A DNA stretch of 51,624 nt. Origin: a virus. The number at the start of each line of letters is the position of its first letter. Within the stretch, counting starts at the first letter, position 1. Shown here piece after piece: positions 29,220-51,624 of the stretch. The stretch covers positions 1 through 51,624 of the IMG/VR virus record IMGVR_UViG_3300023223_001154. One strand, given 5' to 3'. Below the pieces are notes generated by a model. It did no database searches, had not been told where the DNA came from, and saw nothing but the letters and a program-made list of their open reading frames with translations. Made by a program: the position numbers and the translations under genes.

Positions 29220-29220
29220 T

Positions 29221-31489: not shown

Positions 31490-31634
31490 AATTAGTTTTA
31501 TATTCAATATTTTTTGTTCATTATATGTATTGTTTAAGATACCACATTTAAATTTCTTTATAACTTCTTTATATTGTTTAAGTTATGTTCTAATGGGAAT
31601 AAAAATTTTTAAAAAACATGATTTGGGGTTGTAA
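31479..31634 (+). CDS. Possible small membrane protein
   Basis: 51 residues, with hydrophobic stretches (KISFIFNIFCSLYVLFKIP and FFITSLYCLSYVLMG) and a basic tail. It overlaps the nuclease end by 11 bases and has no good ribosome site. The region is otherwise an AT-rich gap of 185 bases. The call is weak. Confidence 0.3.
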   Translation: MIIKISFIFNIFCSLYVLFKIPHLNFFITSLYCLSYVLMGIKIFKKHDLGL

Positions 31635-31674
31635 AATATAATAATTTAATTATTATAATAAATCAGGAGGTACA

Positions 31675-32517: not shown

Positions 32518-32560
32518 CCAAATAAACAATTAAATAAATAACAATTAAAAAGGAGTTATC

Positions 32561-33391
32561 ATGAGTTTTAATGATAAATTAAAAAAATTACAGGGGAATT
32601 ATAAAAAATCTGCTGAAGATTATGAAACAATGTTCGTTACAATTCCACCTGGTGAATATGATGCAAAATTATCCTCAGTTAAATTAGGGACAGTGTCTGG
32701 GGGTAAACTTTGTATAAAACAAGTTTACGTTATAACTAATGGGTCTATGAAAGGGAAAACAGTCCCAGTAAATACTTTCTTAGAGGGCAAAGACGCTCAA
32801 GCTACCACAACATGTTTTTCATATGCAAGGAAATTTATTGATAATATGGGGTATGAGATCCCGGAAACTATTTCGGAAATACCTGACATACTTGCGGCAA
32901 TGAATAAAGATAATATTTATGTACTTATGATAGTAACCAAGAGTGATAACCCTGATTGGCCTAAAATTAACCTCTTTCCGGCCGCCTCTTCTGATGACGG
33001 TGAAGAAGGTGACGGTGAAGAAGGTGGGGGTGAAGAAGGAAGTGATAACGGAGACGGTGAAGGAGATGGCGCAGGAGGTGATGAAGATGAGGAATTTCGT
33101 GAAAGAGTGGTAGCTTTTGCTATTACCTGGGATGTTCCGGAAATAAATGAAGAATCCACAACTGATGAAGTAAGGGAAGCAATTGCTCAGTTTGTTATTG
33201 ATGATGGGAAATGGGAATCAACAGATTTTCAACCTGAGGAAATAGCTTTACTTGAGGATGAATTACAATTAAAAGATTGTTTTAATAAACCTAAACCCCC
33301 ACCTAAAACCAAAAAAAGTATTCAAAAAGCGCCCCCTAGTAAAACCAAAACATCTACAAAAAAAAGTCTTAAAAAATCCGCAAGGCGTTAA
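32561..33391 (+). CDS. DUF669-like single-strand DNA-binding protein
   Basis: 276 residues. An N-terminal OB-like domain (1-140, with YETMFVTIPPGEYDAKLSSVK and KTVPVNTFLEG) resembles DUF669 proteins used as phage SSBs. It is followed by a nearly pure acidic/glycine block (about 147-180, repeated DGEEG units), a helical module (185-240), and a proline-lysine tail (KPPPKTKKS..). The strongly acidic block beside a basic tail is unusual and may mimic DNA or control binding. It sits between Sak4-like ATPase and polymerase. A hairpin terminator follows. Confidence 0.75.
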   Translation: MSFNDKLKKLQGNYKKSAEDYETMFVTIPPGEYDAKLSSVKLGTVSGGKLCIKQVYVITNGSMKGKTVPVNTFLEGKDAQATTTCFSYARKFIDNMGYEIPETISEIPDILAAMNKDNIYVLMIVTKSDNPDWPKINLFPAASSDDGEEGDGEEGGGEEGSDNGDGEGDGAGGDEDEEFRERVVAFAITWDVPEINEESTTDEVREAIAQFVIDDGKWESTDFQPEEIALLEDELQLKDCFNKPKPPPKTKKSIQKAPPSKTKTSTKKSLKKSARR

Positions 33392-33414
33392 GACCTTAAT
33401 TCAATCTAAATACT

Positions 33415-33443
33415 GATCCCCCTCATATTAGGGGGATTATTTT
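33415..33443 (+). terminator. Probable rho-independent terminator or attenuator
   Basis: ATCCCCCT (33416-33423) and AGGGGGAT (33430-33437) form a perfect eight-base stem with a six-base loop, followed by TATTTT. It lies 24 bases after the SSB-like gene and before the polymerase. The short T-run suggests partial termination, which would lower polymerase expression. Confidence 0.7.
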
Positions 33444-33451
33444 AGGATTTT

Positions 33452-35221: not shown

Positions 35222-37254
35222 TGGCAGTAGCTGAAATATTAAATTCGTCAACACTTAAGGCATTTAAGCAACACGGATTTCGGCCGAAAAAAACTTCCGG
35301 AAGTTCTCAGGCTGTTGGAGATTGCCCTTTTTGCGGTAAATCAGACAAATTTTTTGTAAATATTAAGGTAAAAAAATGGGATTGTAAATCTTGTCTCAAA
35401 AATGGGGGCTTTCAAAACTGGCTGAAAGAAATCTGGGAGTACTCTAAAAAGCATTTTAAAGGCCCAATCGCCCGATCTTTGGTCAAAGAGAAGACTTTGG
35501 ACATAATAACCCTTAAAAGGGCTGGAATGGGCTATAATCCCTTGATATCGAGCTACATTATACCAATCTGGGAGATCAATGGGGATAAACTGCATAATCT
35601 TCGTATTTATCGGAATGATAAATTGATTGGGACCAGTAATTGTAATTCAGCGCTCTATGGCTGGGAACAGTTGGATTCAGTAAAAACAAATATTTGGCTG
35701 TGTGAGGGTCATTGGGACTGTTTGGCCATGCAGGAAGCTTTAAATAAGTCTGACAGGTTAACTGAAATTGCTCTGGCTGTCCCAGGGGCTGGGACTTTTA
35801 AAGCTGAATGGACGGGATTCTTGCAGGATTGCAATATCAATGTTTTATATGATAATGATAAAGCTGGGTTTGAGGGTGCAATTAAAGTTTACAATAATTT
35901 AAAAGGGGTTTGTAGTAAATTAAATTTTATTCATTGGAAATCTACTCATAAAGATGGTTTCGATATTAGAGATTTATGGAAAAAAGTAAAAAAGGATAAG
36001 CATAAATTTTTTAGATTAATTAACTCCTCATTAAAAGAACAACCACAAACAAATGATGAAGTTGAAACTAAAATTACAGTTTCTAAGAGAAAAGAATTCA
36101 AGTGGAAGGGTAAAGGGCTTACACCAGAAAAAGCAAGAGCAGGGTTTACTAAATGGTTAAATCTCCCGAATCCTTATGTGATAGATATTCTTTGTGCTAC
36201 ATTTATTGGGAATCGATTGGAAGGGGAACCATTATGGTTATTCTTAGTTGGTCAATCCGGATCAGGTAAATCTGAATTAATAATGTCTTTTGATGATGTT
36301 CAGAATGCTACATCAATTTCTAGTTTAACAACTAAAACTCTTATTTCTGGAGCTGTATTCGCTGGTGGAGGTGATCCTAGTTTAATTCCTAGATTAGATG
36401 GCCGTGTTGTTCTAATGAAGGATCTCACTGAATTATTTGATACAGATATGGTTTCTCAGGGATTAATATGGGGGCAGTTAAGGAATGCTTATGATGGGAA
36501 AGCCGCTAAACCATATGGTAATGGTACATTTAGGATATATGAAAGTAAATTTGGGATGATAATGGGGACAACTCCAATAATAGAAATTAAAATGGAGGGA
36601 ATGTCTGCAATGGGTGAAAGATGTTTAAGGTGGAATTTACCTATGATAAGAGGTTTGGAAGCTGAAGAGGCTATTTTGCGGAAAGCAATGAGTAATACTT
36701 CAAAAGAAAGTCAAATGAGGAAGGAATTAAGTAATACTGCGGTCGCGATACTTGATTATGATTTTAAAGAAATCCCTAAAGTACCCACCATTATTCAAGA
36801 TAAAATATTATATATTTCACAAGTTATTGGAAGACTTCGAGGGACAGTATTTAGAGATAAGTATACTAAAGAAATTAATTATATGCCTTTTCAGGAATTA
36901 GCTACCCGAATAAGCAAACAATTATTAAAGTATATTACAGCGATTGGGATGTTTAGACGACTTTCTATTGTAGGATTAGAAGAATATGAACTTATAAAAC
37001 ATTTAGCATTAAGTAGCGTTCAAACTAAAATATCTTATATAGTGACTAATATGTATAAAAAGCCTGGTAAAATTTGGACTAAAGATGCTGTATGTAATAT
37101 TTTAAGATTATCGCCTATCACTGCGGAGAGAGCTTTGGAAGATTTAAGATTATTGAATGTCTTAACTCGATACGGGAAAAGATATGGTCAGAAAAATTGG
37201 AAGTTTAGGCCAGAAATTAAACAATTAATTTCTAAAAGTGATTTATTCGTATAA
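35221..37254 (+). CDS. Primase-helicase
   Basis: 677 residues that prime and probably unwind DNA at the fork. A CHC2-type zinc domain has C35, C38, C55 and C58. The Toprim domain has LCEGHWDCLAM (E162) and VLYDNDKAG (D211, D213). A linker leads to a P-loop ATPase with GQSGSGKS (344-351) and a Walker B-like RVVLMKDLTEL near 395. It is not the RecA-type DnaB/gp4 helicase core I would expect in T7-like phages. A winged-helix-like C-terminus follows (WTKDAVCNILRLSPITAERALEDL). It is directly coupled to the polymerase gene. Confidence 0.88.
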   Translation: MAVAEILNSSTLKAFKQHGFRPKKTSGSSQAVGDCPFCGKSDKFFVNIKVKKWDCKSCLKNGGFQNWLKEIWEYSKKHFKGPIARSLVKEKTLDIITLKRAGMGYNPLISSYIIPIWEINGDKLHNLRIYRNDKLIGTSNCNSALYGWEQLDSVKTNIWLCEGHWDCLAMQEALNKSDRLTEIALAVPGAGTFKAEWTGFLQDCNINVLYDNDKAGFEGAIKVYNNLKGVCSKLNFIHWKSTHKDGFDIRDLWKKVKKDKHKFFRLINSSLKEQPQTNDEVETKITVSKRKEFKWKGKGLTPEKARAGFTKWLNLPNPYVIDILCATFIGNRLEGEPLWLFLVGQSGSGKSELIMSFDDVQNATSISSLTTKTLISGAVFAGGGDPSLIPRLDGRVVLMKDLTELFDTDMVSQGLIWGQLRNAYDGKAAKPYGNGTFRIYESKFGMIMGTTPIIEIKMEGMSAMGERCLRWNLPMIRGLEAEEAILRKAMSNTSKESQMRKELSNTAVAILDYDFKEIPKVPTIIQDKILYISQVIGRLRGTVFRDKYTKEINYMPFQELATRISKQLLKYITAIGMFRRLSIVGLEEYELIKHLALSSVQTKISYIVTNMYKKPGKIWTKDAVCNILRLSPITAERALEDLRLLNVLTRYGKRYGQKNWKFRPEIKQLISKSDLFV

Positions 37255-37270
37255 GATTATAGGTAATATT

Positions 37271-37405
37271 ATGTATAGAAAAAGATTTTATTTTAAGTTG
37301 ATTTTTAGAATGGATATTTTATTTATATATTTATTATTAAAGGCGTTAAAAGGGTTAACTTATTTAATTAACTCCATAAATACACATAAACAAAAGAGGA
37401 AATAA
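37271..37405 (+). CDS. Small basic protein of unknown function
   Basis: 44 residues with a basic start (MYRKRFYFKLIFRM), a hydrophobic centre (DILFIYLLLKALKGLTYLI) and a basic tail. Its stop overlaps the next start as TAATG, which favours a real gene. The upstream ribosome site is weak. Not recognised. Confidence 0.45.
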   Translation: MYRKRFYFKLIFRMDILFIYLLLKALKGLTYLINSINTHKQKRK

Positions 37406-37584
37406 TGGTTATAAAATCACAAATTATGATGGAAGATGATTCACATAAACATTTCATTACAAAATATAAATTTATTGATTGTATAGGGAAAATTACAATG
37501 AATAAGAATTCAAAAGGGCGTATTTTATCATATTTAATGAAAATAAGTCCTCATACTGTTATAATAGATGGGAGTACAATTTAA
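37405..37584 (+). CDS. Unknown small protein
   Basis: 59 residues, mixed charge (IMMEDDSHKHFITKYKFIDC..). AGAGGAA lies six bases before the ATG. No membrane helix and no known motif. It belongs to a run of short genes between primase-helicase and thyX. Confidence 0.6.
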   Translation: MVIKSQIMMEDDSHKHFITKYKFIDCIGKITMNKNSKGRILSYLMKISPHTVIIDGSTI

Positions 37585-37598
37585 ATTAGGAAAGTATT

Positions 37599-37823
37599 AT
37601 GCATACATTTACAGGTGAAAAGGGCACGATTATTCATTACAATGGTGATTATAGTGGAGATGTTATAATAGTTAAAAGGACGCAGGGAGAAGATTCAAGC
37701 AAAGTGAGAATACCTTGTCAAGATATTTTTGAATTTGTGGCTGAAAGTATTAGAGATAAAAAAGAAGCGCTTTTAGAACATGAAGGGTGGCGAACTTTGT
37801 TAATAAAAGCTAGTGAGTTATAA
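37599..37823 (+). CDS. Unknown small protein, beta-rich start
   Basis: 74 residues. The first 40 form a beta pattern (GTIIHYNGDYSGDVIIVKRT) like small SH3-type modules, followed by a helix (IFEFVAESIRDKKEALLEHEGW). Weak resemblance only; not assigned. The next gene begins one base after it. Confidence 0.65.
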   Translation: MHTFTGEKGTIIHYNGDYSGDVIIVKRTQGEDSSKVRIPCQDIFEFVAESIRDKKEALLEHEGWRTLLIKASEL

Positions 37824-37824
37824 C

Positions 37825-38019
37825 ATGATTGATTTTAAAAAATTAAGTAAGATTTATAGAGAAAGGAAAAGTCGTTGGAAAATTAAAAATGAAAAGGTTA
37901 GCCCAGAATATATCTATGAACCAGTTTATTATACTTGTTATGGTTGTAAAAAAGAAAAAGATTGCCCGGAAGCTTGGGATCCTTATAACATTGATGGTGA
38001 TTGTTTAATGGAGAAATAA
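37825..38019 (+). CDS. Cysteine-rich small protein, possible zinc binder
   Basis: 64 residues from ATG 37825. An in-frame GTG at 37813 lies inside the previous gene and is less likely. Four cysteines in CYGCKKEKDC and GDC near the C-terminus suggest a small zinc ribbon, with a basic N-terminal half (KLSKIYRERKSRWKIK). Not recognised. Confidence 0.62.
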   Translation: MIDFKKLSKIYRERKSRWKIKNEKVSPEYIYEPVYYTCYGCKKEKDCPEAWDPYNIDGDCLMEK

Positions 38020-38020
38020 T

Positions 38021-38263
38021 ATGTCAACAAAATTAGAAGCGATAAATGACCCGAATTCATGCTGGAATAAAGCAAGGGATGATGAGCCTATATTTACATT
38101 AAGGGCAAAAGATCTCTTATCTTCGGGTTTTGTCCTTCATTGGGCGCATACCGCTGATTTACTTGGGTGTAGCGAGAATAAAGTATTAAATGCTCGTAAA
38201 ACTTCTAAAAATATGGTGGAATGGGCAGGTAAAAAAGAGAATAAAGCGGATTTTCCGAGTTAA
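38021..38263 (+). CDS. Conserved-looking phage protein with DPNSCWNKA motif
   Basis: 80 residues. DPNSCWNKARDDEPIFTLRA is a recurrent start in small phage proteins of unknown role, and it continues with FVLHWAHTADLLG and a lysine-rich tail. I can only say that it looks like a widely shared accessory protein. The start is two bases after the previous stop. Confidence 0.65.
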   Translation: MSTKLEAINDPNSCWNKARDDEPIFTLRAKDLLSSGFVLHWAHTADLLGCSENKVLNARKTSKNMVEWAGKKENKADFPS

Positions 38264-38284
38264 TTTAAATGAAGGAGAGTAAAG

Positions 38285-38707
38285 ATGACAGATTTTGATC
38301 CAATAAATCCAGATTATTATAAACAGGGTGATAAACAATGTATAGAATATACTGAAAATTGGCCTCATTGTATTGCAGCAGCAGTCAAGTATATGTGGCG
38401 ATATAAGGATAAAGAAAACCCTAAATTAGATCTAGAAAAAGCAATTTGGTATTTAAGAAGAGAAATCACAAACATGCGTGAAAAACGGCAAGGTAAATTA
38501 TACTATACATCTCATCAAGCTTATATAAGTGAATCTATTAATCATATAGAATCAAGAAATATAAAGGAAGCTATTAATCAGATATGGGGACGAGATTTTA
38601 AAGGTGTTGTTGTACAAGATATTCAAAGGGCAATTGCTTCTATAGGAAATGAATTAGAGCTTTTAAAATATAAACCGGAGGATGAGAATGAAGTTAATAC
38701 GTCGTGA
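38285..38707 (+). CDS. DUF3310 protein
   Basis: 140 residues; the first 65 are the DUF3310 domain: NPDYYKQGDKQCIEYTEN, AAAVKYMWRYKDKENPKLDLEKA and IWYLRREI. Phage members are often labelled nucleotide kinase-like, without a P-loop, and none is visible here. The rest is a helical extension. GGAGAG precedes the ATG. It stands next to the thyX block, consistent with nucleotide-related metabolism. Confidence 0.86.
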   Translation: MTDFDPINPDYYKQGDKQCIEYTENWPHCIAAAVKYMWRYKDKENPKLDLEKAIWYLRREITNMREKRQGKLYYTSHQAYISESINHIESRNIKEAINQIWGRDFKGVVVQDIQRAIASIGNELELLKYKPEDENEVNTS

Positions 38708-38867
38708 ACAATTACTAATAAATTATTTTGTTACAAATGAGTTAAAGGATCTGGTAATTTATTGTAAACGGGACAACCTAAGAGTTATTATTGTAAAGGA
38801 TTTAGAGGACCATATACAAAAGAGATTAGCTCTTTATTCAGATCATGGGGGGCCAAATGAAATTTAA
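38688..38867 (+). CDS. Small basic unknown protein
   Basis: 59 residues from ATG 38688, chosen because GGAGG lies six bases upstream; ATG 38682 is too close to it. Contains LLINYFVTNELKDLVIYC and VIIVKDLEDHIQKRLALY, a helix/beta mix. It overlaps both the DUF3310 gene and thyX, implying coupled translation. Not recognised. Confidence 0.62.
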   Translation: MKLIRREQLLINYFVTNELKDLVIYCKRDNLRVIIVKDLEDHIQKRLALYSDHGGPNEI

Positions 38868-39582
38868 GAAAGGTTATACAGTAGAGGTACTTGGTAATTC
38901 ATTTGTAAAATATATTCGACACTTAGGAGCGGATGGAGATTTAATTGAGGAAGGTGAGCGTATACTACAGGCAGATATGGCTATCACTGAAGCTGCAAGA
39001 ATGTCATATTTAGAGCCATCTAAAGGAGAAGAAAAAGATAAGAAACTTTTACGGTATTTATTTAAAAATAAACATACCTCTCCTTTTGAGATGGTGAACA
39101 TTACTTTCAATATCCGGATGCCTATATTTGTTATGAGGCAATTTGTACGGCATAGGACTTTCAGACTTAATGAAATTTCAGCCCGGTATACTGAATTAGA
39201 TTTAGGGTTTTATATCCCAGAAAAATGGAGGAGCCAGGATCCAAAAAATAAACAAGGAAGTGTTTTTAATTATGGCCTAAAATCTGACGAAATAAGTGCC
39301 GGTTTAGATATGTTTTATGACGAAACATTTTCATACTATAAAAGATTATTGGATATAGGAGTAGCCCGTGAGATGGCAAGGATGGTTCTCCCAGTGGGTG
39401 CGTTGACTGAAATTGAGGTTAATATCGATTTAAATAATTTAATGAAATATTTTAGATTAAGGGATGATCCTCACGCTCAATGGGAACATCAAGAAATTGC
39501 AAGGGCTATGAAAATTATAACTAGGGAATGCTTTCCTTGGGTAATGGGAATGTATGATGAATCAGAAAATAATAAGGAGTAA
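38857..39582 (+). CDS. thyX: Flavin-dependent thymidylate synthase ThyX
   Basis: Makes dTMP from dUMP using FAD and methylene-tetrahydrofolate. The ThyX signature RHR-x(7)-RY is present as RHRTFRLNEISARY, with R where the usual activating serine region has S/A. FKNKHTSPFEMVNITFNIRMPIFVMRQFVRH and the C-terminal NLMKYFRLRDDPHAQWE, EIARAM also fit. I start at ATG 38857, four bases after a G-rich ribosome site; an in-frame ATG at 38845 is possible. The 241 residues are normal. It raises the thymidine supply for AT-rich phage DNA. Confidence 0.95.
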   Translation: MKFKKGYTVEVLGNSFVKYIRHLGADGDLIEEGERILQADMAITEAARMSYLEPSKGEEKDKKLLRYLFKNKHTSPFEMVNITFNIRMPIFVMRQFVRHRTFRLNEISARYTELDLGFYIPEKWRSQDPKNKQGSVFNYGLKSDEISAGLDMFYDETFSYYKRLLDIGVAREMARMVLPVGALTEIEVNIDLNNLMKYFRLRDDPHAQWEHQEIARAMKIITRECFPWVMGMYDESENNKE

Positions 39583-39588
39583 AAAATT

Positions 39589-39804
39589 ATGCCAATGAAT
39601 TTCCCAGATTTAGATAGTTTAAAAAAGGCTGCAAAAGTACATGAGTTCAGAGACCTTCAATTGGGAGAATCTGAACAGGAATATCGAAATGCTTTAGTTA
39701 ATCATGTAAGATCATTAGATAAAATAGAATCTTATGAAATTAAGTTTAAAGTTAGATGGGATCAGTGGACAGATGATCAAAAAATGCAAAGCCTGTTCGG
39801 GTGA
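39589..39804 (+). CDS. Unknown small protein after thyX
   Basis: 71 residues, acidic and helical at the start (FPDLDSLKKAAKVHEFRDLQ) with ESEQEYRNALVNHVRSLDKIE and a short C-terminal beta part. AAGGAG precedes the ATG by nine bases. No family recognised. Confidence 0.68.
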   Translation: MPMNFPDLDSLKKAAKVHEFRDLQLGESEQEYRNALVNHVRSLDKIESYEIKFKVRWDQWTDDQKMQSLFG

Positions 39805-39823
39805 TTAATGAAAGGAGTAAATT

Positions 39824-40222
39824 ATGGATATTAAACAAATGTACGATCAAGCTTGGGAATCTATGACAACAGGTAAAAGGGGATTTTTGTGGAATTATTT
39901 AGATAATGTTTCATATGGGGGTATTGAATTAATTTCGAGATATCCTGATGGTTTAAAATTTTCTACTGATAAGAGAGTACCTGCTATGAGTAATTTCTCT
40001 TTCAAAAATCCTAGTATAAAACCGGTTGCTAAGGAAAATACAGTAATTTTAGTAAAGGATCAGCATTCTAGAGATTGGTGTCTTAAAATTTCTTTAGGGA
40101 AATATGATTTAGAAGGGAGAATTTTAGCTCGTTCTATTAATGGTACAAATGAATATTCATGGAGTGAGTGGAAACCACTTAATAAAAATGGGATGCCCCC
40201 AAAAGATTTGCATGAAAATTAA
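39824..40222 (+). CDS. Unknown protein
   Basis: 132 residues with an N-terminal helix, then a beta-rich body (GLKFSTDKRVP.., NTVILVKDQHSRDWCLKISLG) and a tryptophan-rich end (EYSWSEWKPLNKNG). It may be a small beta-barrel. AAAGGAG lies upstream. It overlaps the next gene's start by 11 bases. Confidence 0.68.
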   Translation: MDIKQMYDQAWESMTTGKRGFLWNYLDNVSYGGIELISRYPDGLKFSTDKRVPAMSNFSFKNPSIKPVAKENTVILVKDQHSRDWCLKISLGKYDLEGRILARSINGTNEYSWSEWKPLNKNGMPPKDLHEN

Positions 40223-40733
40223 AGCTTTTTGTCCTATGATTGAATACTTACATAAAGCCTGGGTAGCTGAAAAGCTCTATTTATCCAAAGGGCATGATTG
40301 GGTTGATTTATGGACTAATGCTTTCTCTGGGGTTAAGGAACCCATGTACTTTGAATTGAAGGCGCGACTTAGAAGGAAAACTAATGAGATTTTTTGTGTC
40401 CGGGAACCCCAGGTCCAGGAGTATAGAAGAGAATTTGGGGATAGGTATGTTTTTTGGGTTTTCTTGATATATACCATGAGTATGAAAGTTAAAAAAATAA
40501 AATATATTAGTGAAGATTTTATTGTATCAAGAGAAATTTATGTTCTACCCTGGAAATGGATTAATAGATTTGAAGTTTATAGTTCTAGTTCAGGGGAACA
40601 TAGGTACCCAAAAGAAAGATTTATGAGACAATATAAATTAGAATATCATAATATTGATGGAACTTCATTTTATGTGTGTAAGGATAATAGGTTGAGAGCT
40701 TTGTTTAAAAGTGCTCAAGAAATACCATTTTAA
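40212..40733 (+). CDS. Possible PD-(D/E)XK-fold nuclease
   Basis: 173 residues from ATG 40212. An N-terminal helix is followed by DWVDLWTNAF, then MYFELKAR with E-x-K, and QVQEYRREFGDRYVFWVFL. D, E-x-K and a following helix with Q/Y are the expected order for restriction- or Hjc-type nucleases. The C-terminal part (KWINRFEVYSSSSGEHRY..) is unrecognised. The fold call is from pattern only. A longer frame upstream exists but lacks a ribosome site. Confidence 0.5.
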   Translation: MKIKAFCPMIEYLHKAWVAEKLYLSKGHDWVDLWTNAFSGVKEPMYFELKARLRRKTNEIFCVREPQVQEYRREFGDRYVFWVFLIYTMSMKVKKIKYISEDFIVSREIYVLPWKWINRFEVYSSSSGEHRYPKERFMRQYKLEYHNIDGTSFYVCKDNRLRALFKSAQEIPF

Positions 40734-40743
40734 GGAGGATTAT

Positions 40744-41031
40744 ATGGGAATAAATATCGGGGTTTTTAATAAAATTGATGGTGATTTCATTCAAGATAAA
40801 AAGTTTGATTCATCTAGGTATCAAGGAGATAGCGATTTTGTTATGGAATTAAATTTCACTTCGCATGAAAATGTACCTGAAGGGGTTCCAGTGTTTCACA
40901 GACCTGAGAATTTGTTAGATGCAACTAAATGGGTCCGGAAGAATATTAAACCAATTAATCAATCCAGATTTTTTAATGTCTTAAATAAAATGGTTAGTGA
41001 TAAAGATTTGTATTTTTATTTTAGTTTTTAG
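40744..41031 (+). CDS. Unknown protein
   Basis: 95 residues from ATG 40744, with a strong AAGGAGG eight bases upstream. Starts with a beta strand (GINIGVFNKIDGDF), continues VMELNFTSHENVPEGVPVFHRP and ends in a helical, aromatic tail. Not recognised. Confidence 0.68.
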   Translation: MGINIGVFNKIDGDFIQDKKFDSSRYQGDSDFVMELNFTSHENVPEGVPVFHRPENLLDATKWVRKNIKPINQSRFFNVLNKMVSDKDLYFYFSF

Positions 41032-41042
41032 AAAGGATTATT

Positions 41043-41210
41043 ATGTCCGGCACAGATGATCAGTATTTTTGGCTTACTAAACAGCAACATAAACAAGTTA
41101 TTAGATTATTAAATGTTGTGAAATTATTACGTATAAATAAAGTAGAAGAAGAACAAGAAGATTTATACCATACTCCATTTCATTATGATATTTTTGATAA
41201 ATATAATTAA
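41043..41210 (+). CDS. Unknown small protein
   Basis: 55 residues with a basic-amphipathic helix (LTKQQHKQVIRLLNVVKLLRI) followed by an acidic stretch (KVEEEQEDLYH). GAAAGGA lies before the ATG. Not recognised. Confidence 0.6.
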   Translation: MSGTDDQYFWLTKQQHKQVIRLLNVVKLLRINKVEEEQEDLYHTPFHYDIFDKYN

Positions 41211-41223
41211 TTAAGGATTTATT

Positions 41224-41448
41224 ATGAAAACTAGAAAAGATATAACAGACAGTGAAGCTCTAACTTTACTACAAGAGTACTCAAAAGAGGCTAATATATT
41301 CAATGAAAGCCCTATTATTAATGTATGTAAAGATTTAATTACCATAACTGAACAGAATAAAGCTTTAATAGTAACTATTAATCGCATGGAAGAAGATGAG
41401 CGTAACGCCAGGGAAGCTAGGTTAAAAATGGAACTTGAGGCTGATTAG
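41224..41448 (+). CDS. Small coiled-coil protein
   Basis: 74 residues, almost all helical; the C-terminal half (IVTINRMEEDERNAREARLKMEL) has coiled-coil spacing. AAGGA precedes the ATG. Not recognised. It is followed by a block of membrane proteins. Confidence 0.62.
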   Translation: MKTRKDITDSEALTLLQEYSKEANIFNESPIINVCKDLITITEQNKALIVTINRMEEDERNAREARLKMELEAD

Positions 41449-41533
41449 GGGTAAGATGAATAATTCTCAAATAAAAAGCTGTAGTGATCTGTTTCACTTT
41501 TTTATGTATGTATATTTAAAAAGGGGGTATCAG

Positions 41534-41704
41534 ATGAAGAAACGGCTAATTAAATATAAAAATGGGTGGAAATTTAATTTAAAAAATTTTGATTATAATG
41601 AATTTAGCGCATTTTTATTGCTTGGTATGCTCGTTTTGGGGCTAGGGTTACCTACGATAATTATGTTAATTTTTTTAATAAAATCTTTATTTAAAGGAGG
41701 GTAA
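41534..41704 (+). CDS. Small membrane protein
   Basis: 56 residues from ATG 41534, chosen for the AGGGGG site seven bases upstream. In-frame starts at 41456 (ATG) and 41435 (TTG) would lengthen it. It has a basic N-terminus then a membrane helix (FLLLGMLVLGLGLPTIIMLIFLI) and LFKGG end. It ends two bases before the next membrane protein gene, and the pair may work together. Confidence 0.55.
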   Translation: MKKRLIKYKNGWKFNLKNFDYNEFSAFLLLGMLVLGLGLPTIIMLIFLIKSLFKGG

Positions 41705-41705
41705 A

Positions 41706-41918
41706 ATGGAAAATTATTTAAAAATAGCAATATGTGTATTTATGTTAACCATTTATTTTATTTTTGGGTGGTGGGTAGGCCGGGAACAAGGTCAATATCA
41801 GGGCTCATTGCAGGAGGTGAGGAAAGAGGTGTTAGAATTACAGAATAGAGTGTGGCCAGAACCATTACCGGATAGTGTGATTATGGATGCCTTACCTCAA
41901 AACTATATATTGGAGTAA
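41706..41918 (+). CDS. Single-helix membrane protein, spanin-like layout
   Basis: 70 residues: an N-terminal membrane helix (IAICVFMLTIYFIFGWWVG) and a polar helix (LQEVRKEVLELQNRVWPEPL). Type II membrane plus periplasmic coiled coil fits inner-membrane spanins, but I find no lipoprotein partner, and the gene is far from the lysis block. A strong AAAGGAGG lies upstream. Confidence 0.55.
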   Translation: MENYLKIAICVFMLTIYFIFGWWVGREQGQYQGSLQEVRKEVLELQNRVWPEPLPDSVIMDALPQNYILE

Positions 41919-41920
41919 TG

Positions 41921-42091
41921 ATGAGCATACAAAAAGAAATAATTAAAGAAATAAGACTTGATGAGCTTACTAAATTTGTTGATTGGTCAGATAAAAATGT
42001 TTATTCTGATGATCATGGGGATCGTTATTTATCAATAGTTGATATATGTGAATATATTAAACAAAGACAACAGGAGATTATGAATGAGTAA
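41921..42091 (+). CDS. Unknown acidic small protein
   Basis: 56 residues from ATG 41921; an ATG directly before it at 41918 overlaps the previous stop (TAATGATG). Acidic, with SIVDICEYIKQRQQEIM as a C-terminal helix. Its end overlaps the next gene by eight bases. Not recognised. Confidence 0.58.
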   Translation: MSIQKEIIKEIRLDELTKFVDWSDKNVYSDDHGDRYLSIVDICEYIKQRQQEIMNE

Positions 42092-42344
42092 GGATATTAA
42101 ATTTTTTAAAGTATGGGATATAGTGAGGCATAGATCTAGTGGTGAATATGCTGTTATTGAGCATGTTGATGAAATATGTACAGTGCATGAAAACCCATTT
42201 ATTAGGTGTCCAGGTGACATTAGGTGTCCAGGTGACGGGCATAATTGTGTTATAGAACCAATACATAAATATAATATATCTACTGGATTTGGAAAAGGAC
42301 TTGAAGAGGTTGATGGGAATTTATTAGAATTGGCACCAAATTAG
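42084..42344 (+). CDS. Small protein with duplicated IRCPGD segment
   Basis: 86 residues. The start (FFKVWDIVRHRSSGEYAVIEHVDE) looks like a small SH3/KOW-like barrel. In the middle two copies of IRCPGD stand in tandem, encoded by an exact 18-base duplication. The stop is TAG at 42342. The same frame then continues for 33 sense codons (DGWVSMPMNGGSPLHRDM..) to TAA at 42446. The original gene may have been longer. Confidence 0.62.
   Translation: MSKDIKFFKVWDIVRHRSSGEYAVIEHVDEICTVHENPFIRCPGDIRCPGDGHNCVIEPIHKYNISTGFGKGLEEVDGNLLELAPN
42201..42236 (+). repeat. Perfect 18-base tandem duplication within a gene
   Basis: Two exact copies of an 18-base unit (ATTAGGTGTCCAGGTGAC) lie at 42201-42218 and 42219-42236. 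The unit keeps frame and adds IRCPGD. Because the copies are identical at the DNA level, the duplication is likely recent. Confidence 0.92.
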
Positions 42345-42432
42345 GATGGCTGGGTTTCAATGCCTATGAATGGAGGATCACCACTTCATAGAGATATGAA
42401 AGAACCCGGATACACCCCTCAAGATGAGGATA

Positions 42433-42642
42433 ATGAACGAGATTAAAGTAAAATATTTAGGGGGGTCAGCGGATGGGGAGTGTAAAGTATTCCCTGAAGC
42501 ACTGGGTAAACATATGGCTAGTACTAAAAAAATATGGGTTCATCGGAAAAGTTTTATTGATGATAAAGATTATAGTTATTTATATGTAAAATACCTTAAT
42601 CATCCTGATGGGTCTTATAGATTTATCTATAGGGAGAAATGA
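42433..42642 (+). CDS. Unknown small beta-rich protein
   Basis: 69 residues from ATG 42433; ATG 42424 is an alternative. The pattern IKVKYLGGSADGECKVFPEALG followed by VKYLNHPDGSYRFIY is seen in many small phage proteins of unknown role. It overlaps the next gene by four bases. The candidate continuation of the upstream gene overlaps its start. Confidence 0.6.
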   Translation: MNEIKVKYLGGSADGECKVFPEALGKHMASTKKIWVHRKSFIDDKDYSYLYVKYLNHPDGSYRFIYREK

Positions 42643-42938
42643 TGAGATTTGATAATTTATTGGAATTTATAGAATTAGGCTTCTCAAGAGAAGAGCTTGA
42701 CGTTATAATTGCAACTTATTTCTTTTCAACTATTCGTTTGGTTGCGTTTCATTTGGATATAGATGATGATAAAGTTTTAGAATATAATAATTCTATACGT
42801 TTAAAAAGTAAAAGTTCGACTCTATTTGAGTTTTATGGTAAATATATGAATGTTATTAGTCTTTTGGGTAAGAGAAATCCTAGATATAATAAATTTTTTA
42901 AGCAAATAAAGACTAGAAAAATTTGGATTAGGGGGTGA
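42639..42938 (+). CDS. Unknown helical protein
   Basis: 99 residues from ATG 42639; a second ATG follows directly. Helix-rich (LLEFIELGFSREELDVIIATYFF) with a basic C-terminal half (GKRNPRYNKFFKQIKTRKIW). Not recognised. GGGAGAA precedes the start. Confidence 0.64.
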   Translation: MMRFDNLLEFIELGFSREELDVIIATYFFSTIRLVAFHLDIDDDKVLEYNNSIRLKSKSSTLFEFYGKYMNVISLLGKRNPRYNKFFKQIKTRKIWIRG

Positions 42939-42940
42939 TA

Positions 42941-43126
42941 ATGGATGCAAAGGAATTTCATGCAGGATTTAAAGTTAGATTTCCTCAAAGTGTTTATGAG
43001 TTGGGTATAATGGTTCATGGGAACACTTTTTTTGTAGTTTTGGCGATGTTTAACTATCCGATTATAGGTATTGCTTGTGAGTATATAAGTCAGGAAGATA
43101 GTAAGAATGATAATGTTAATAATTAA
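42941..43126 (+). CDS. Unknown small protein
   Basis: 61 residues from ATG 42941 with GGGGG six bases upstream; an in-frame GTG at 42935 overlaps the previous stop. Beta-rich (GIMVHGNTFFVVLAMF). It is the last gene before the second repeat element. Not recognised. Confidence 0.6.
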   Translation: MDAKEFHAGFKVRFPQSVYELGIMVHGNTFFVVLAMFNYPIIGIACEYISQEDSKNDNVNN

Positions 43127-43198
43127 AAAATTACCCCTATCCCTGGGAAAATATTTAAGTCGATTAAACGCAATTACGTTTAGTTTCAAAGAGACTTT

Positions 43199-43215
43199 TA
43201 CCCAGAGATTGGGTA
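43199..43215 (+). terminator. Small hairpin, possible weak terminator
   Basis: TACCCA and TGGGTA form a six-base stem with a five-base loop, followed by GTTTTC. It lies 73 bases after the preceding gene. Stability is low and the T-run is short, so termination is uncertain. Confidence 0.35.
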
Positions 43216-43366
43216 GTTTTCAGTCTTTATTTTTATGGGAAAGAGTTTAGAGTGTTTTTACAAAGATCACCTTTATTTTGGATTTCCAGGAAAGTCAGAC
43301 TAACTGAATTGGGTTATTTTAGGGAATGTAAGTCTTTATTTTACAATGTTTTACAAGAAATTTCAA

Positions 43367-43526
43367 GGAAAAACGCCATTAAAGTGCCTAAACCTTACCT
43401 ACCCCCACATATTCCATTTAAATTACAGTTTATCACGATAATTATTTATAATTATATATTATATTTTAATAATAGTATTTTATAAGTGTGGGGGTGGGTA
43501 AGGTTTAGGCGTTTTTCAGGCGTTTT
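43367..43526. repeat. Dispersed inverted-arm element, copy B
   Basis: The better preserved copy. The left arm (43370-43409) and right arm (43487-43526) are inverted repeats matching at 34 of 40 positions, with AAAACGCC and CCTAAACC followed by a C/G-rich block. The space between the arms is AT-rich. The first 82 bases match copy A with one difference. The right end carries two GGCGTTTT motifs in tandem. Confidence 0.88.
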
Positions 43527-43547
43527 GTTTTTTAGTTTAAGGTTTTT

Positions 43548-43847
43548 ATGGCATATCAAAAATGGTTAATTTATCCTCCAGGGCAAAATCGTCCTTTAGG
43601 TTTACGATTTGATTTTGAATTACAATCCGGTCATTTAGGTGGTGTACAAATTGATTATGATAATATCAATTTCGTTATTACTGAATATTTAGGTATTAAA
43701 CTTGGTCGAAAGAAGAGAATTTCAGGTAATAAAATTAGATTTAAAATAATGTTAAGTTCTCAAAAATTTAAAAATGCTTTAAAGAGATTAGATGAAGATG
43801 GGTATATTATTAATGATACTAAATCACTTGGGAGGGTTATGCGATGA
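43548..43847 (+). CDS. Unknown protein after repeat copy B
   Basis: 99 residues, basic, beta-rich at first (WLIYPPGQNRPLGLRFDFELQSG) then basic-helical (SQKFKNALKRLDEDGYI). Its ribosome site is weak (AAGG at about 43537). The next gene starts at its stop (ATGA). Not recognised. Confidence 0.65.
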   Translation: MAYQKWLIYPPGQNRPLGLRFDFELQSGHLGGVQIDYDNINFVITEYLGIKLGRKKRISGNKIRFKIMLSSQKFKNALKRLDEDGYIINDTKSLGRVMR

Positions 43848-44422
43848 AAAAAAAGAAAATTGAAGCTAATCCTTTTGGTGTAAATATTAATCATTTAAAG
43901 GAAGTAATTACCAATAAAAATTGTAAAATTCCAGGTTGGCACGAAGTTGATACAGAAGAACTAAATAAAATGGCTGATTCAATTAGTGATATTTTTAATA
44001 AAGAAAAGGAGAATATTGGTACTCATACTTGTAATGGTTCAATTTGGGGTGAATCTAATATAGAAGATTTAAATAAATGGGCTAAAAAAATGGGTGATCA
44101 TGTTAATAAAATTTATGATTGGGCTGATCCATTAAAATACCATTCTGATATAAAACAAGAAGATATTGAAAAAAAATATTCTGATAATTCTATGGACATC
44201 CCATATAGTGAATTTATTTTTTCTAAAGAATATATTGTTAATGTTAAAAGTAGTTTTGCATTTAATAAAAAAGTAAGGGAAATAATTAATGAAGCTAAGC
44301 AAAAAGGTTTTAAATATTATGAAGTTTGGATGGATATGCTATTTGATGAAAGAAAAATGAGGTTTTATTATGAAAAACCTGCCCGAAAATATTTAATAAG
44401 TGGGACACTTAATAAATTATGA
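43844..44422 (+). CDS. Unknown lysine-rich protein
   Basis: 192 residues, lysine- and asparagine-rich. The centre has two similar tracts, DTEELNKMADSISDIFNKE and NIEDLNKWAKKMGDHVNKI, which look like an internal repeat of a helix unit. The C-terminal part resembles an unassigned alpha/beta domain (EIINEAKQKGFKYYEVWMDM). It overlaps both neighbours by four bases. Its place just before the clamp-like gene suggests a link to replication. Confidence 0.62.
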   Translation: MKKKKIEANPFGVNINHLKEVITNKNCKIPGWHEVDTEELNKMADSISDIFNKEKENIGTHTCNGSIWGESNIEDLNKWAKKMGDHVNKIYDWADPLKYHSDIKQEDIEKKYSDNSMDIPYSEFIFSKEYIVNVKSSFAFNKKVREIINEAKQKGFKYYEVWMDMLFDERKMRFYYEKPARKYLISGTLNKL

Positions 44423-45102
44423 TATTATCAAAAAATAATTTAAAATCAATTCTTATCACTGTGATTGATAAGTCTATAGCCATTTTAAATAATTTACATA
44501 TTACTAAGGATGGATCTACTATAGTTTCAAATGGTAAAGTAACTTTAGCCGTTTCACCGGTGCCTGAGAAAATAAAAGAAAGTATTCCACTTAGAGAGAG
44601 AGGTGTGATAAGTAGTAAGGGGGTTACTATTAATGGGGAGACTATTAAAGAAGTGTTAAAGAATATCCCGAAGGATACTCTGTTTAAGGGATTATTGGAG
44701 TATGTTGAATTTGATAATGGTAAATTTTTTGTTAATGATGGGAAGCGTAAAAAAACGATTGAAAGTAAAGTTTATGATAGACAATTTATTAATTATCGTA
44801 AAATATTTAAAGATATTAATACAAATAATGGATTTAGGCTTGTAGTAAATAGGAAAAGATTGCATGAATTAATTAAAACAATGGATGATTTATGTGCGGA
44901 TAATTCAAATGAGTCTCCTTTATATATTGAATTTACTAAAGATAATAATATGCTTTTAAGATCATTTAATTATAAGACTGGTCAAAATGTATTAGCTACT
45001 ATGACTTCTTATAAGAATTTGGAAGGTGAATGGCCTGTATATAATAAATGGGAGAGTAAATTATTGGGTAAATTAAAAGAATATTTGAGGTTTAATAAAT
45101 GA
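44419..45102 (+). CDS. Sliding-clamp-like protein
   Basis: 227 residues with a pattern resembling the domains of DNA polymerase clamps. SILITVIDKSIAILNNLHITKDG followed by a strand-turn series with TIVSNGKVTLAVSP is like the start of a beta-clamp domain. A second similar domain follows LVVNRKRLHELIKTMDDLC with PLYIEFTKDNNMLLRSFN. Two domains at this length would form a trimer, as in T4 gp45. The similarity is structural in feel rather than motif-based. Family A phage polymerases are not always clamp-dependent, so this would be notable. Confidence 0.52.
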   Translation: MILSKNNLKSILITVIDKSIAILNNLHITKDGSTIVSNGKVTLAVSPVPEKIKESIPLRERGVISSKGVTINGETIKEVLKNIPKDTLFKGLLEYVEFDNGKFFVNDGKRKKTIESKVYDRQFINYRKIFKDINTNNGFRLVVNRKRLHELIKTMDDLCADNSNESPLYIEFTKDNNMLLRSFNYKTGQNVLATMTSYKNLEGEWPVYNKWESKLLGKLKEYLRFNK

Positions 45103-45278
45103 GGTTATTACCTTATTCAAGTGTAATTTTAGAGTGTTATGCATTTTGTATGAATTGTTCTTGGAGAACTTCAAGAAATAAAGATGCTCAAAAATTAGGT
45201 AAAGTACATGCTTTAGATAGTAAACATCAGGTTATTATTCAGATAGAAAAATTTTACCAATATGATGGCAGAAAATGA
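45099..45278 (+). CDS. Small cysteine-containing protein
   Basis: 59 residues; CYAFCMNCSWR followed by KLGKVHALDSKHQV recalls small phage zinc-ribbon-like proteins that use C-x2-C and two histidines. It overlaps the previous gene by four bases and the next by four (ATGA). Function unknown. Confidence 0.62.
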   Translation: MRLLPYSSVILECYAFCMNCSWRTSRNKDAQKLGKVHALDSKHQVIIQIEKFYQYDGRK

Positions 45279-45481
45279 AATACATTTTATTACAAAAAAT
45301 GAATAGAGATCAGTATGATAGGCTTAAATCTATGGGATGTACTAAGATAAAATTAAAGAATTATTCAATAGTTAATAAAATGTATAATGTTACCATAGAT
45401 TGTGTTCATCCTGGAAAAATAACGAGTATTTGTATAAATCCTACATTTATAAATGAATTACATATTAGGCGTGAAAAATGA
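45275..45481 (+). CDS. Unknown small protein
   Basis: 68 residues, basic, with a beta-rich C-terminal half (YNVTIDCVHPGKITSICI). It overlaps both neighbours by four bases. Not recognised. Confidence 0.6.
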   Translation: MKYILLQKMNRDQYDRLKSMGCTKIKLKNYSIVNKMYNVTIDCVHPGKITSICINPTFINELHIRREK

Positions 45482-45660
45482 AAAAGTCAGATATTAAAAA
45501 AGAGGAAAATAAAAAATATTATAGCCCTAAATATCATCGAGAATATTATTTAAATAATCGTACAAAAATATTAATAGCACGTAAGAAAAGATGGGCGGCT
45601 ATGACTGATAAACAAAAAAAAGAAAAGCTTAATAAAAATCAAGGGAATAATAATGGCTGA
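45478..45660 (+). CDS. Small highly basic protein
   Basis: 60 residues, more than a third lysine and arginine. The stretch YYSPKYHREYYLNNRTKILI followed by ARKKRWAA resembles the basic region found next to HNH or AP2 domains in phage proteins, but no nuclease domain is present. DNA or RNA binding is likely from charge. A nine-codon frame (45653-45682) follows it and is probably not a gene. Confidence 0.6.
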   Translation: MKKSDIKKEENKKYYSPKYHREYYLNNRTKILIARKKRWAAMTDKQKKEKLNKNQGNNNG

Positions 45661-45684
45661 TGATATCAAAAAAGATAATTAATT

Positions 45685-46101
45685 ATGTTCAAAGATCTAC
45701 CTAAAATAAATATTAATGATGATGATATTGCAAATATAATAAAAAGTAGTTTTCCAATTAATACAGTTCCTGTACAAGAATTAATACTTGCATTAGAGTT
45801 TATTGAATTAAAGTTAACAACAAGACAATATGAAACTATTTTATTATATGTTAGATATTCAACTAGAATGGAAATATCTGATTTCTTATGTTGTTCTATG
45901 ACTGCGCTCAAATCAAGGGTAGGGGCTATTTTAAAGAAGACTAAATTTAAAACTATGACTGAATTAGTTGAGTATTATAATGAATTATTGAGGTTATTAA
46001 TTTTAAGAGAGGATAATATATTTTTAAATAAAAAAGAAAAAATTGAAGGTACAAATTTAAGGCCTGGTATGCTAATAAATATAGGTCCTGATGTTACTTG
46101 A
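45685..46101 (+). CDS. LuxR/sigma region 4-type helix-turn-helix regulator
   Basis: 138 residues. LTTRQYETILLYVRYSTRMEI, then SDFLCCSMTALKSRVGAILK and TKFKTMTELVEYY match the LuxR/GerE-type DNA-binding domain: L-T-x-R-Q start, eIS-x-x-L turn, then recognition helix S-x-x-A-L-K-S-R-x-x-x-I-x-x-K. The N-terminal 50 residues and C-terminal 40 are unrecognised. A strong promoter starts within its end, immediately before a virion-type gene. This makes it a good candidate for a phage transcription regulator. Confidence 0.7.
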   Translation: MFKDLPKININDDDIANIIKSSFPINTVPVQELILALEFIELKLTTRQYETILLYVRYSTRMEISDFLCCSMTALKSRVGAILKKTKFKTMTELVEYYNELLRLLILREDNIFLNKKEKIEGTNLRPGMLINIGPDVT

Positions 46102-46126
46102 TAAGTATAAATTTTTTGGGTATACT
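46098..46126 (+). promoter_or_regulatory. Sigma70-type promoter before displaced virion-type gene
   Basis: TTGATA (46098-46103) is followed after 17 bases by TATACT (46121-46126). Six bases after the -10 box stands an ATG (46133), exactly as at the early promoter (25606-25634). It overlaps the last codons of the helix-turn-helix gene and likely drives 46133 through the tRNA-like gene. Confidence 0.75.
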
Positions 46127-46132
46127 AATATA

Positions 46133-46240
46133 ATGGATAAGAATCTAATTTTAATTTGGATTATATGGGGATTATTGACTATGTGTATAGGCGTGTTCTT
46201 ATATGATTTATTTAAGGGGTTAATATTATGGGTACATTAA
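46133..46240 (+). CDS. Tiny membrane peptide at transcript start
   Basis: 35 residues (LILIWIIWGLLTMCIGVFLY then DLFKG), one membrane helix. Its ATG lies at the expected transcription start, so translation would be nearly leaderless. It overlaps the next gene by 13 bases. It might be a leader or a real lysis-type peptide; the evidence is thin. Confidence 0.4.
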   Translation: MDKNLILIWIIWGLLTMCIGVFLYDLFKGLILWVH

Positions 46241-46908
46241 ATATTGTTATGGACACACGAGCTACTAAACGTGGGCTTGATGATTTGGGGAAAGAACAGT
46301 ATCCTTTTGCATTAGCTCAATCACTAACTCAGGCAGCTACGAGAGCACAGGGTAGAGTGAGAAGATTATCGGAGAGGAAATTTAATATTAAAAGTAAATT
46401 TACATTAAGAAATATTAGAATAGTACCTAGTAAAAAATCAGATGTTAAATTGGGTATAGCTGTTTCAATGGTATTTACTGATAAAAGAATTACTCATTAC
46501 ATGGCTGGACATGAAGTAGGAGAAATTAGAAGATCTCGGAAGAAAAAATTGATAGCTGTTCCAAGTAGGATTTTAAAAAAGAAAAATTTTAGGACAGTAA
46601 GTGGGAAAGTGAAGAAGAGGTTTTTACCTAAGGTATTATTAAAAGGTAAGAAGAATAAAACAGTTAATGCTAAAGCTAAGAGTGGAAATAGAAAAGCTTT
46701 TGTTATTGATGATAAGCAGAACGCTTTGATTGTACGACGTAAAACTAAGAAGACAGATTCTCCATTAGATTTATTGTATACATTGGTTCCTAAAACTAGA
46801 ATTGATAAAAAATGGAGATTTGAGCAAAATGTGCAGGTAAGTGTTAAGTTAAATTTTAGAAGGGATTTTGATAAAAATATGAATAAGGCGATTAGAAATG
46901 CTAAATAA
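46228..46908 (+). CDS. Virion-morphogenesis-like protein, displaced from late block
   Basis: 226 residues, very basic. The start (LDDLGKEQYPFALAQSLTQA then ATRAQGRV, a basic helix, KFTLRNIRIVPS) matches the common phage pattern of minor tail/tail-completion proteins: AL-x-x-AL-x-x-TA, then F-T-x-R-S-I-R-V. The centre is lysine-rich (KKKLIAVPSRILKKK..) and the C-terminus is helical (RRDFDKNMNKAI). Such genes normally sit near head-tail connectors. Here it is about 21 kb beyond that block, behind its own promoter. An AAGGGG site lies upstream. Confidence 0.5.
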   Translation: MGTLNIVMDTRATKRGLDDLGKEQYPFALAQSLTQAATRAQGRVRRLSERKFNIKSKFTLRNIRIVPSKKSDVKLGIAVSMVFTDKRITHYMAGHEVGEIRRSRKKKLIAVPSRILKKKNFRTVSGKVKKRFLPKVLLKGKKNKTVNAKAKSGNRKAFVIDDKQNALIVRRKTKKTDSPLDLLYTLVPKTRIDKKWRFEQNVQVSVKLNFRRDFDKNMNKAIRNAK

Positions 46909-46941
46909 TAATTTATTAAATAATTTCAAAGGAGTTAAAAA

Positions 46942-47310
46942 ATGAATCATCAAGAACAATTTGATACCATTTGTATACATCTTGCAAAACAGGAAAAGCA
47001 AGCTATGGATAATCTAAATAATTGTGAATATCTTACAAAAAATGGTTTAAAATGTGCTATTGGATGTTTATTAACTGAAGATGAACTAAAAATTTGGACT
47101 ACATCAAATACAAATAGTGTTGAAATGAATATAAAAAAATTTGGAAATCCTAAAAATTTTAAAAGTAAAGATGCAGATTTATTAATAGAAATGCAAACAG
47201 CACATGATTTTTCTACACAAATTGAAACTTTAATACATAAATTAATTAAAATAGCATATAATTTTAAATTAAATAATAAAAAAGTATATTTAATTAAAAA
47301 ATGGAATTAA
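46942..47310 (+). CDS. Unknown protein with CAIGCLL motif
   Basis: 122 residues. The pattern FDTICIHLAKQEKQAM, then C-x-Y-x-x-x-x-G-x-K-CAIGCLLTEDEL recurs in small phage proteins of unknown function. The gene at 48566 has a similar CGCAIGESYYL. An AAAGGAG site lies upstream. The stop is directly followed by the tRNA-like gene. Confidence 0.66.
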   Translation: MNHQEQFDTICIHLAKQEKQAMDNLNNCEYLTKNGLKCAIGCLLTEDELKIWTTSNTNSVEMNIKKFGNPKNFKSKDADLLIEMQTAHDFSTQIETLIHKLIKIAYNFKLNNKKVYLIKKWN

Positions 47311-47445
47311 GGACAAGTGGTGGAATAGGATGGTATACACAAACTTCAATATAAGTAGTCTCATGAGTCAGGTTCTTGATTAATGCCCTACCTTCAGCAA
47401 AATATATTGAGGAATCAAGGTGCAGGTTCAAATCCTGCCTTGTCC
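47311..47445 (+). tRNA. tRNA-like gene with about 50 extra bases
   Basis: Ends pair perfectly: GGACAAG (47311-47317) with CTTGTCC (47439-47445). The T arm GCAGG-TTCAAAT-CCTGC (47422-47438) is canonical. A D arm GTG...CAC (47320-47340) has a GG in its loop and resembles class II (Leu-type) tRNAs. Total length is 135, against about 85-90 for tRNA-Leu. No normal anticodon arm fits. Instead CTTCAATATA (47344-47353) pairs with TATATTGAGG (47403-47412), and CTTGATT (47375-47381) with AATCAAG (47413-47419). The CCA end is not encoded. Amino acid identity cannot be assigned. Confidence 0.65.
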
Positions 47446-47450
47446 TTTTT
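47446..47450 (+). terminator. T-run after the tRNA-like gene
   Basis: Five T follow the acceptor stem directly, the arrangement by which a stable stem plus T-run can end transcription. The acceptor stem itself is the only stem available, so it may act both as tRNA end and terminator. The evidence is weak. Confidence 0.3.
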
Positions 47451-47470
47451 TAATATACAGAAATCTTATT

Positions 47471-47641
47471 ATGGATAGAAATTCAAAAGAACATATTCAA
47501 AAAGAATTAATGTATTTAAATAAAATGAAGAAAGATTGTTTAAAATTTAAGGAAGATCCTAATGATTTTAATAATTCAAGAGATTTTGAAGATGTATTAC
47601 TTTTAATTGATTTATGGATAATGGATTTGGAGGATTTATGA
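47471..47641 (+). CDS. Unknown small protein
   Basis: 56 residues from ATG 47471; a longer frame reaching back into the tRNA-like gene is rejected. Helical and charged (SKEHIQKELMYLNKMKKDCLK). The stop overlaps the next start by four bases (ATGA). Not recognised. Confidence 0.58.
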   Translation: MDRNSKEHIQKELMYLNKMKKDCLKFKEDPNDFNNSRDFEDVLLLIDLWIMDLEDL

Positions 47642-47838
47642 CTGAAGAACAGATTAAAAAATCAAAGTTTAATATCGATAAATTATCCCATGAAAGGCTA
47701 GCCTGGTTATGGCGGTTCAATACTCGGGCTAATCATCCTTATTTTACTAATAAGGAATTGTTTAAATACCTTGAGAAAAAATTTAATGAATTTGGAGGGA
47801 TGACTCCACAAATATCTAAAAAAATAGGATGGGGATGA
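47638..47838 (+). CDS. Unknown small protein
   Basis: 66 residues from ATG 47638 with GGAGG four bases upstream. It has SHERLAWLWRFNTRANHPYF and a helical end (LFKYLEKKFNEFG). The central W/R pattern is common in small phage proteins. Not recognised. Confidence 0.62.
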   Translation: MTEEQIKKSKFNIDKLSHERLAWLWRFNTRANHPYFTNKELFKYLEKKFNEFGGMTPQISKKIGWG

Positions 47839-48137
47839 TTAATATCATGTATGCTTTAAATAAAATACGTTATATTGTCAACTTATATCAAGATAGAGTT
47901 AAAGGAAAAAATGGTCAATGGTGCTGGAATTGTATGATAGAGGATTTTGATAAAGATGGTCATCCTTTTAATATTCATGTTGGTCTTCAAAATGTAACTT
48001 TTAGGGGTGCTTATTGGTTTAATACTAATAAGGAAGCTTACCAGAATTGGAAGGAATTTTCAAAATTAAATGGTTGGCGGGAAAGTTTTTCGAGTGTTTT
48101 AATCAATAGGAAGAATATTAAAAATGGCATTAGTTAA
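47835..48137 (+). CDS. Unknown protein
   Basis: 100 residues from ATG 47835, which overlaps the previous stop (ATGA); ATG 47829 and 47847 are alternatives. Beta-rich (KGKNGQWCWNCMIEDFDKDGH, then NIHVGLQNVTFRGAYWF). Not recognised. Confidence 0.6.
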   Translation: MINIMYALNKIRYIVNLYQDRVKGKNGQWCWNCMIEDFDKDGHPFNIHVGLQNVTFRGAYWFNTNKEAYQNWKEFSKLNGWRESFSSVLINRKNIKNGIS

Positions 48138-50267: not shown

Positions 50268-50426
50268 ATGGCTAAAAAATTACCTACTAAGATTGAACAA
50301 TGTGACGAATGCCCTTATCATTATTATGTAGATAGTGGAATAGGGTATAAATGTAGACATACAGAAAGAGAACTTACTCATTTAATGAAACCATTACCTG
50401 AATGGTGTCCCTTGGAGGATGTATAA
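50268..50426 (+). CDS. Small four-cysteine protein, source of terminal inverted repeat
   Basis: 52 residues: CDECPYHYYVDSG then YKCRHTERELTHL and PLPEWCPLEDV. Four cysteines (CDEC, KC, WC) make a zinc ribbon likely; the MKPLPEWCPL end is common in small phage proteins. GAGAGGA lies upstream. Bases 50343-50425 recur inverted at the window end. Confidence 0.68.
   Translation: MAKKLPTKIEQCDECPYHYYVDSGIGYKCRHTERELTHLMKPLPEWCPLEDV
50343..50425 (+). repeat. Inverted repeat, internal copy
   Basis: Matches the reverse complement of 51542-51624 at 82 of 83 positions, with the first 76 bases identical. It covers the 3' half of the small cysteine protein gene. The partner runs to the last base of the window, so the true repeat may be longer. 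Confidence 0.95.
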
Positions 50427-51541: not shown

Positions 51542-51624
51542 TATACAACCTCCAAGGGACACCATTCAGGTAATGGTTTCATTAAATGAGTAAGTTCTCT
51601 TTCTGTATGTCTACATTTATACCC
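51542..51624 (-). repeat. Inverted repeat, terminal copy with gene fragment
   Basis: The reverse complement of 50343-50425. It carries the 3' part of the small cysteine protein gene on the minus strand, with its MKPLPEWCPLE end, which then loses frame homology after one changed base. The window stops inside it. Confidence 0.93.

Follow-up and report, generated by a model that had tools for sequence, protein, structure and literature searches.

The stretch of DNA analysed here, referred to as the window, is a viral contig of 51,624 nt from an uncultivated tailed phage, and almost every gene lies on its + strand. The first part (0-25 kb) encodes a terminase, portal and capsid of the lambda type together with a Mu-like contractile tail. 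These are followed by an early/replication region, the products of which include a DUF932 protein, a helicase, a uracil-DNA glycosylase, an exonuclease, a Sak4-like annealing protein, a DNA polymerase, a primase, a thymidylate synthase and a clamp-like protein. Two copies of an element are present on the same strand, about 18 kb apart. Copy A lies upstream of the early/replication region and copy B within it, upstream of the clamp-like gene, so that most of the replication genes sit between the two, including the phage-encoded DNA polymerase, primase, helicase, exonuclease and Sak4-like protein. The features of the locus are:

25210-25365, + strand: element copy A, 156 nt
25210-25249, + strand: left arm of copy A, with the same sequence as its counterpart in copy B; box 1 at 25210-25217, box 2 at 25224-25232, C-rich box 3 at 25238-25249
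25250-25326, no strand assigned: A/T-rich spacer of copy A, 77 nt, 11.7% GC; first 42 nt conserved with copy B (one difference)
25327-25365, - strand: inverted right arm of copy A, diverged in sequence; G-rich box at 25327-25338, box 2 at 25344-25352, degenerate box 1 at 25358-25365
25606-25634, + strand: sigma-70-like promoter TTGACA-17-TATATT (11/12), a consensus match only, between copy A and the early operon
26090-45102, + strand: early/replication region, from family matches
43198-43216, + strand: intrinsic-terminator-like hairpin, a consensus match only, located after the operon that precedes copy B and not part of the element
43370-43526, + strand: element copy B, 157 nt
43370-43409, + strand: left arm of copy B; box 1 at 43370-43377, box 2 at 43384-43392, box 3 at 43398-43409
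43410-43486, no strand assigned: A/T-rich spacer of copy B, 77 nt, 11.7% GC
43487-43526, - strand: right arm of copy B; box 3 at 43487-43498, box 2 at 43504-43512, box 1 at 43519-43526

An earlier note on this DNA had described a 160-base element in two copies about 18 kb apart; the number of copies and their separation stand, though each copy is a few bases shorter than that, and copy B begins at 43370 rather than at 43367. The note had also placed both copies in non-coding gaps of 420-500 bases. These gaps measure 501 nt for copy A and 421 nt for copy B and are the two longest in the window, the next being 344 nt. The last late gene stops 70 nt before copy A, which is followed, after 240 nt, by the sigma-70-like promoter. 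No comparable promoter was found beside copy B in the consensus scan. The last late gene itself (24690-25139) contains a stretch that by eye resembles M15-type peptidase endolysins, and it has no match to Pfam, PHROG or NCBIfam models. Just past copy A, at 25404-25440, there is a good Shine-Dalgarno sequence and start (AGGAGGTACAATGGCA) that almost matches the one with which the Sak4-like gene opens (31649-31680) but has a frame of only 8 codons; this frame is possibly a gene remnant or a leader peptide. The uracil-DNA glycosylase gene of the replication region (29856-30377) is family 4-like. At the far end of the contig, 50343-50425 and 51542-51624 form an 83-nt inverted repeat that is 99% complementary and whose second arm stops exactly at the contig end. 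As this looks like a fold-back artefact of assembly or amplification, the last kilobase may be unreliable.

The 82-base repeat with a single mismatch reported earlier was recovered, with 81 of 82 positions identical between 25210-25291 and 43370-43451. Ungapped likeness of the two copies extends to 146 nt at 84%, and beyond the first 82 bases they align with one 1-base gap, the right half having diverged. The longest exact direct repeat in the window is at least 60 nt, which was the limit of the search, against a maximum of 19 in 40 dinucleotide shuffles, and among 24-base inverted arms that of copy B is the best in the window (23/24, with at most 21 in the shuffles). The shuffled genomes never came near these values and the elements are far above chance. 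Repeats with comparably long arms number three in 1.33 Mb comprising the window and related phage loci; one of these is copy B and another is at a contig end. There is no third copy of the element in the window. Since the upstream flanks of the two copies are unrelated and their right halves differ, it is unlikely that the second copy is an assembly duplication, the outcome that the earlier note had named as one that would undo its claim.

Each copy consists of inverted 40-base arms (39 in the right arm of copy A) around a loop of 77 bases, close to the 80 or so bases noted earlier between the left arm and its inverted partner. With a G+C content of 11.7%, both loops fall in the lowest 0.26% of 77-nt stretches in the window, and their length is equal in the two copies although the right halves of the loops share little sequence. 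The arms of copy B are Watson-Crick complementary at 34 of 40 positions, which agrees with the earlier count, with a further three G-U pairs in the + strand RNA; those of copy A form 29 Watson-Crick and 3 G-U pairs. Three boxes, AAAYGCC, RYGCCTAAA and CCNACCCCYACA, are common to all four arms, while the linkers between them vary. Box 1 and box 2, both GCC-centred, are 11 bp apart, or 10 bp in the right arm of copy A, which is about one helical turn. The units AAAACGCC/GGCGTTTT, noted before as recurring, occur five times in the window, every time within the two elements. Comparison of the copies also confirmed that the left arms are nearly identical and the right arms diverged: conservation is 99% in the left half, low in the right half of the loop and up again in the right arm. 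From this pattern, the left half may be directly constrained or may have been homogenised by recombination.

To see whether the element occurs elsewhere, as the earlier note had proposed, it was sought in related phages and host genomes, and the viral contigs, species genomes, phages and plasmids searched yielded no homologue. A covariance-model search through related loci of phages and hosts, about 1 Mb in all, returned none either. Pattern scans of viral and species-genome contigs gave either nothing or one chance match, in a G+C-rich contig and with no hairpin partner, and blastn against phages and plasmids gave nothing relevant. Relatives sought through the helicase, clamp-like and DUF932 proteins were not found. 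Even the nearest terminases share no more than about 54% identity, most of them lie on short contigs, and the element is absent from all of the terminase-relative loci examined. Related terminases in host genomes reach 44% (Wolbachia and alphaproteobacterial MAGs), too distant to name a host. The absence of relatives may reflect sampling.

The earlier note had listed a paired replication origin and a site for a phage-encoded binding protein among its suggestions. It is these that fit best, because of the shared boxes, the helical-turn spacing, the A/T-rich spacers and the position in the two longest gaps. We propose, tentatively and with somewhat less than even confidence, that a phage protein recognises the elements as DNA sites and that these are most likely paired replication origins arranged like oriL and oriR of SPP1. 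Conservation of the boxes in all four arms with variable linkers, and the greater conservation of the right arm than of the right half of the loop, favour an origin, as do the equal length of the loops, the confinement of the AAAACGCC box to the two elements and the phage's own replication genes between them. As might be expected of paired origins of the SPP1 type, there are two distant sites with the same repeated boxes and, judged on composition, each has an adjacent A/T-rich region. The boxes are not arranged as direct repeats, however; two are in tandem within an arm and the arms are mirrored. GC skew lends no support: its sign stays the same at both copies, it does not shift at copy A, and the rise in third-position skew begins before copy B. 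This third-position skew is 0.5-0.7 from about 36 kb to 48 kb (36000-48000) as against about 0.2-0.4 elsewhere. No G38P-like initiator or helicase loader was found among the family matches listed (in one list the first 25 of 60 families), many of the early proteins matching nothing. The two genes directly after copy B have no convincing family match, and structure predictions for the product of a flanking gene and for another early protein were of low confidence. The same anatomy would also suit an operator or another nucleoprotein site.

In the mechanism we envisage, a phage-encoded sequence-specific protein, most likely a replication initiator, would recognise both elements as double-stranded DNA, with the conserved left half as the part that it reads directly. 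In both arms it would contact the boxes from the same helical face, bend or loop the 77-bp, 88% A+T spacer and then melt it, which would allow the phage primase and helicase to load. One copy could start early (theta) replication. The other could serve, as has been proposed for SPP1 oriL/oriR, as a late origin or a bound roadblock, switching to concatemer synthesis with the exonuclease and Sak4-like protein of the phage.

The two origins of SPP1, oriL and oriR, are separated by 12-13 kb, and each combines repeats with an A/T-rich unwinding element (PMC6316719, PMC3485210). Both are bound by one protein, one of them is in a long intergenic region, and the second site may be a roadblock that switches the mode of replication (PMC6316719, PMC3485210). 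Like the G38P-bound origins of this Bacillus phage, the elements described here are two distant and similarly organised sites with boxes and an A/T-rich region, in this case 18 kb apart. The boxes of SPP1 are direct repeats, however, rather than inverted arms, and one SPP1 origin is inside the initiator gene 38, whereas here both copies are non-coding. Neither a gp38/gp39 homologue nor any sequence relation was recognised. Given the mirrored arms and the lack of a recognised G38P-like gene, the elements are best described as working like the SPP1 origins rather than as belonging to their class. The iteron origin of the lambda type also has tandem protein-binding boxes beside A/T-rich DNA, as seen here, but it is a single origin with direct iterons inside gene O, while this phage has two intergenic copies with mirrored pairs of boxes. 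Satellite phage P4 has two separated sites, ori1 and crr, that share boxes and are bound by one replication protein. The presence of two separated sites with common boxes is shared, though the boxes and layout differ and no P4-type alpha protein was recognised in this phage.

The elements could instead act as RNA, the + strand transcript forming long hairpins at operon boundaries, which would either end or attenuate transcription or else protect or process the mRNA. This is one of the two main alternatives, the other being an operator, but on balance unlikely. When both strands were folded, as had been suggested, both copies folded well, as any long inverted repeat does; copy B has a fold of -67 kcal/mol with z about -9 to -10.6 and copy A a z of about -4. 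In copy B three of the positions at which the arms differ form G-U pairs in the + strand, and the stem is followed by a tract rich in U. The start of copy A so soon after the last late gene would also suit a terminator. Copy A, however, folds better as the - strand, and the G-U-compatible differences are split, three being compatible on the + strand (in both copies) and three further transitions on the - strand (in A only). All seven scored pairs that differ between the copies are broken in A, with no compensatory changes, a weak test as it compares two sequences. As there is no compensatory change and the G-U changes favour neither strand consistently, the pattern favours recognition of DNA sequence over an RNA hairpin, within the limits of a two-sequence comparison. 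Copy B does share with intrinsic terminators a G+C-containing stem followed by T-rich sequence, but the loop is 77 nt with 42 conserved bases that a role as RNA leaves unexplained, the T tract of copy A is weak, and the consensus scan calls neither element. A separate, canonical terminator-like site is already present upstream of copy B. An Rfam scan of the elements found no family at the gathering score, the weak matches being to generic long hairpins. The terminator-like RNA of the earlier note is a possible but poorer explanation.

Rather unlikely, in our judgement, is that a phage transcription regulator uses the elements as operators or enhancer-like sites to control the operons after each copy. 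The paired boxes at helical-turn spacing and the position at the starts of operons would be consistent with this, as would the strong promoter past copy A. Copy B lacks such a neighbour in the consensus scan, though, the promoter lies clear of the boxes, no family of regulators turned up among the proteins scanned with Pfam, and the fixed length and very high A+T content of the spacer are not explained. It is improbable, though conceivable, that the phage uses a type of origin without a described relative, recognised through its mirrored arms and present in two copies around the replication genes, where for example an extruded or single-stranded DNA hairpin would be read by the phage primase or initiator. 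A miniature inverted-repeat transposable element inserted twice, also raised in the earlier note, is very improbable: there are two copies with terminal inverted arms and the homology stops abruptly at the left arm, but the flanks hold no duplication of at least 4 matching bases, no transposase or integrase family was found among the proteins scanned with Pfam, no dispersed family of copies was found in the window or in the other phages, plasmids and genomes searched, and a near-identical half beside a diverged half is not expected from a recent double insertion. Integron attC sites and retrons were also considered and dropped, with no integrase in the Pfam lists and no reverse transcriptase in the family scans.

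For most of the tailed phages that are known only through metagenomes, no replication origin has, to our knowledge, been mapped. Were the elements to prove operators or terminators, so large and symmetrical an orphan, found in none of the collections searched, would represent an undescribed regulatory solution. This clearly delimited, box-bearing and A/T-rich pair in the two longest gaps provides origin candidates that are directly testable, and the element could serve as the DNA bait with which to find the initiator of the phage.
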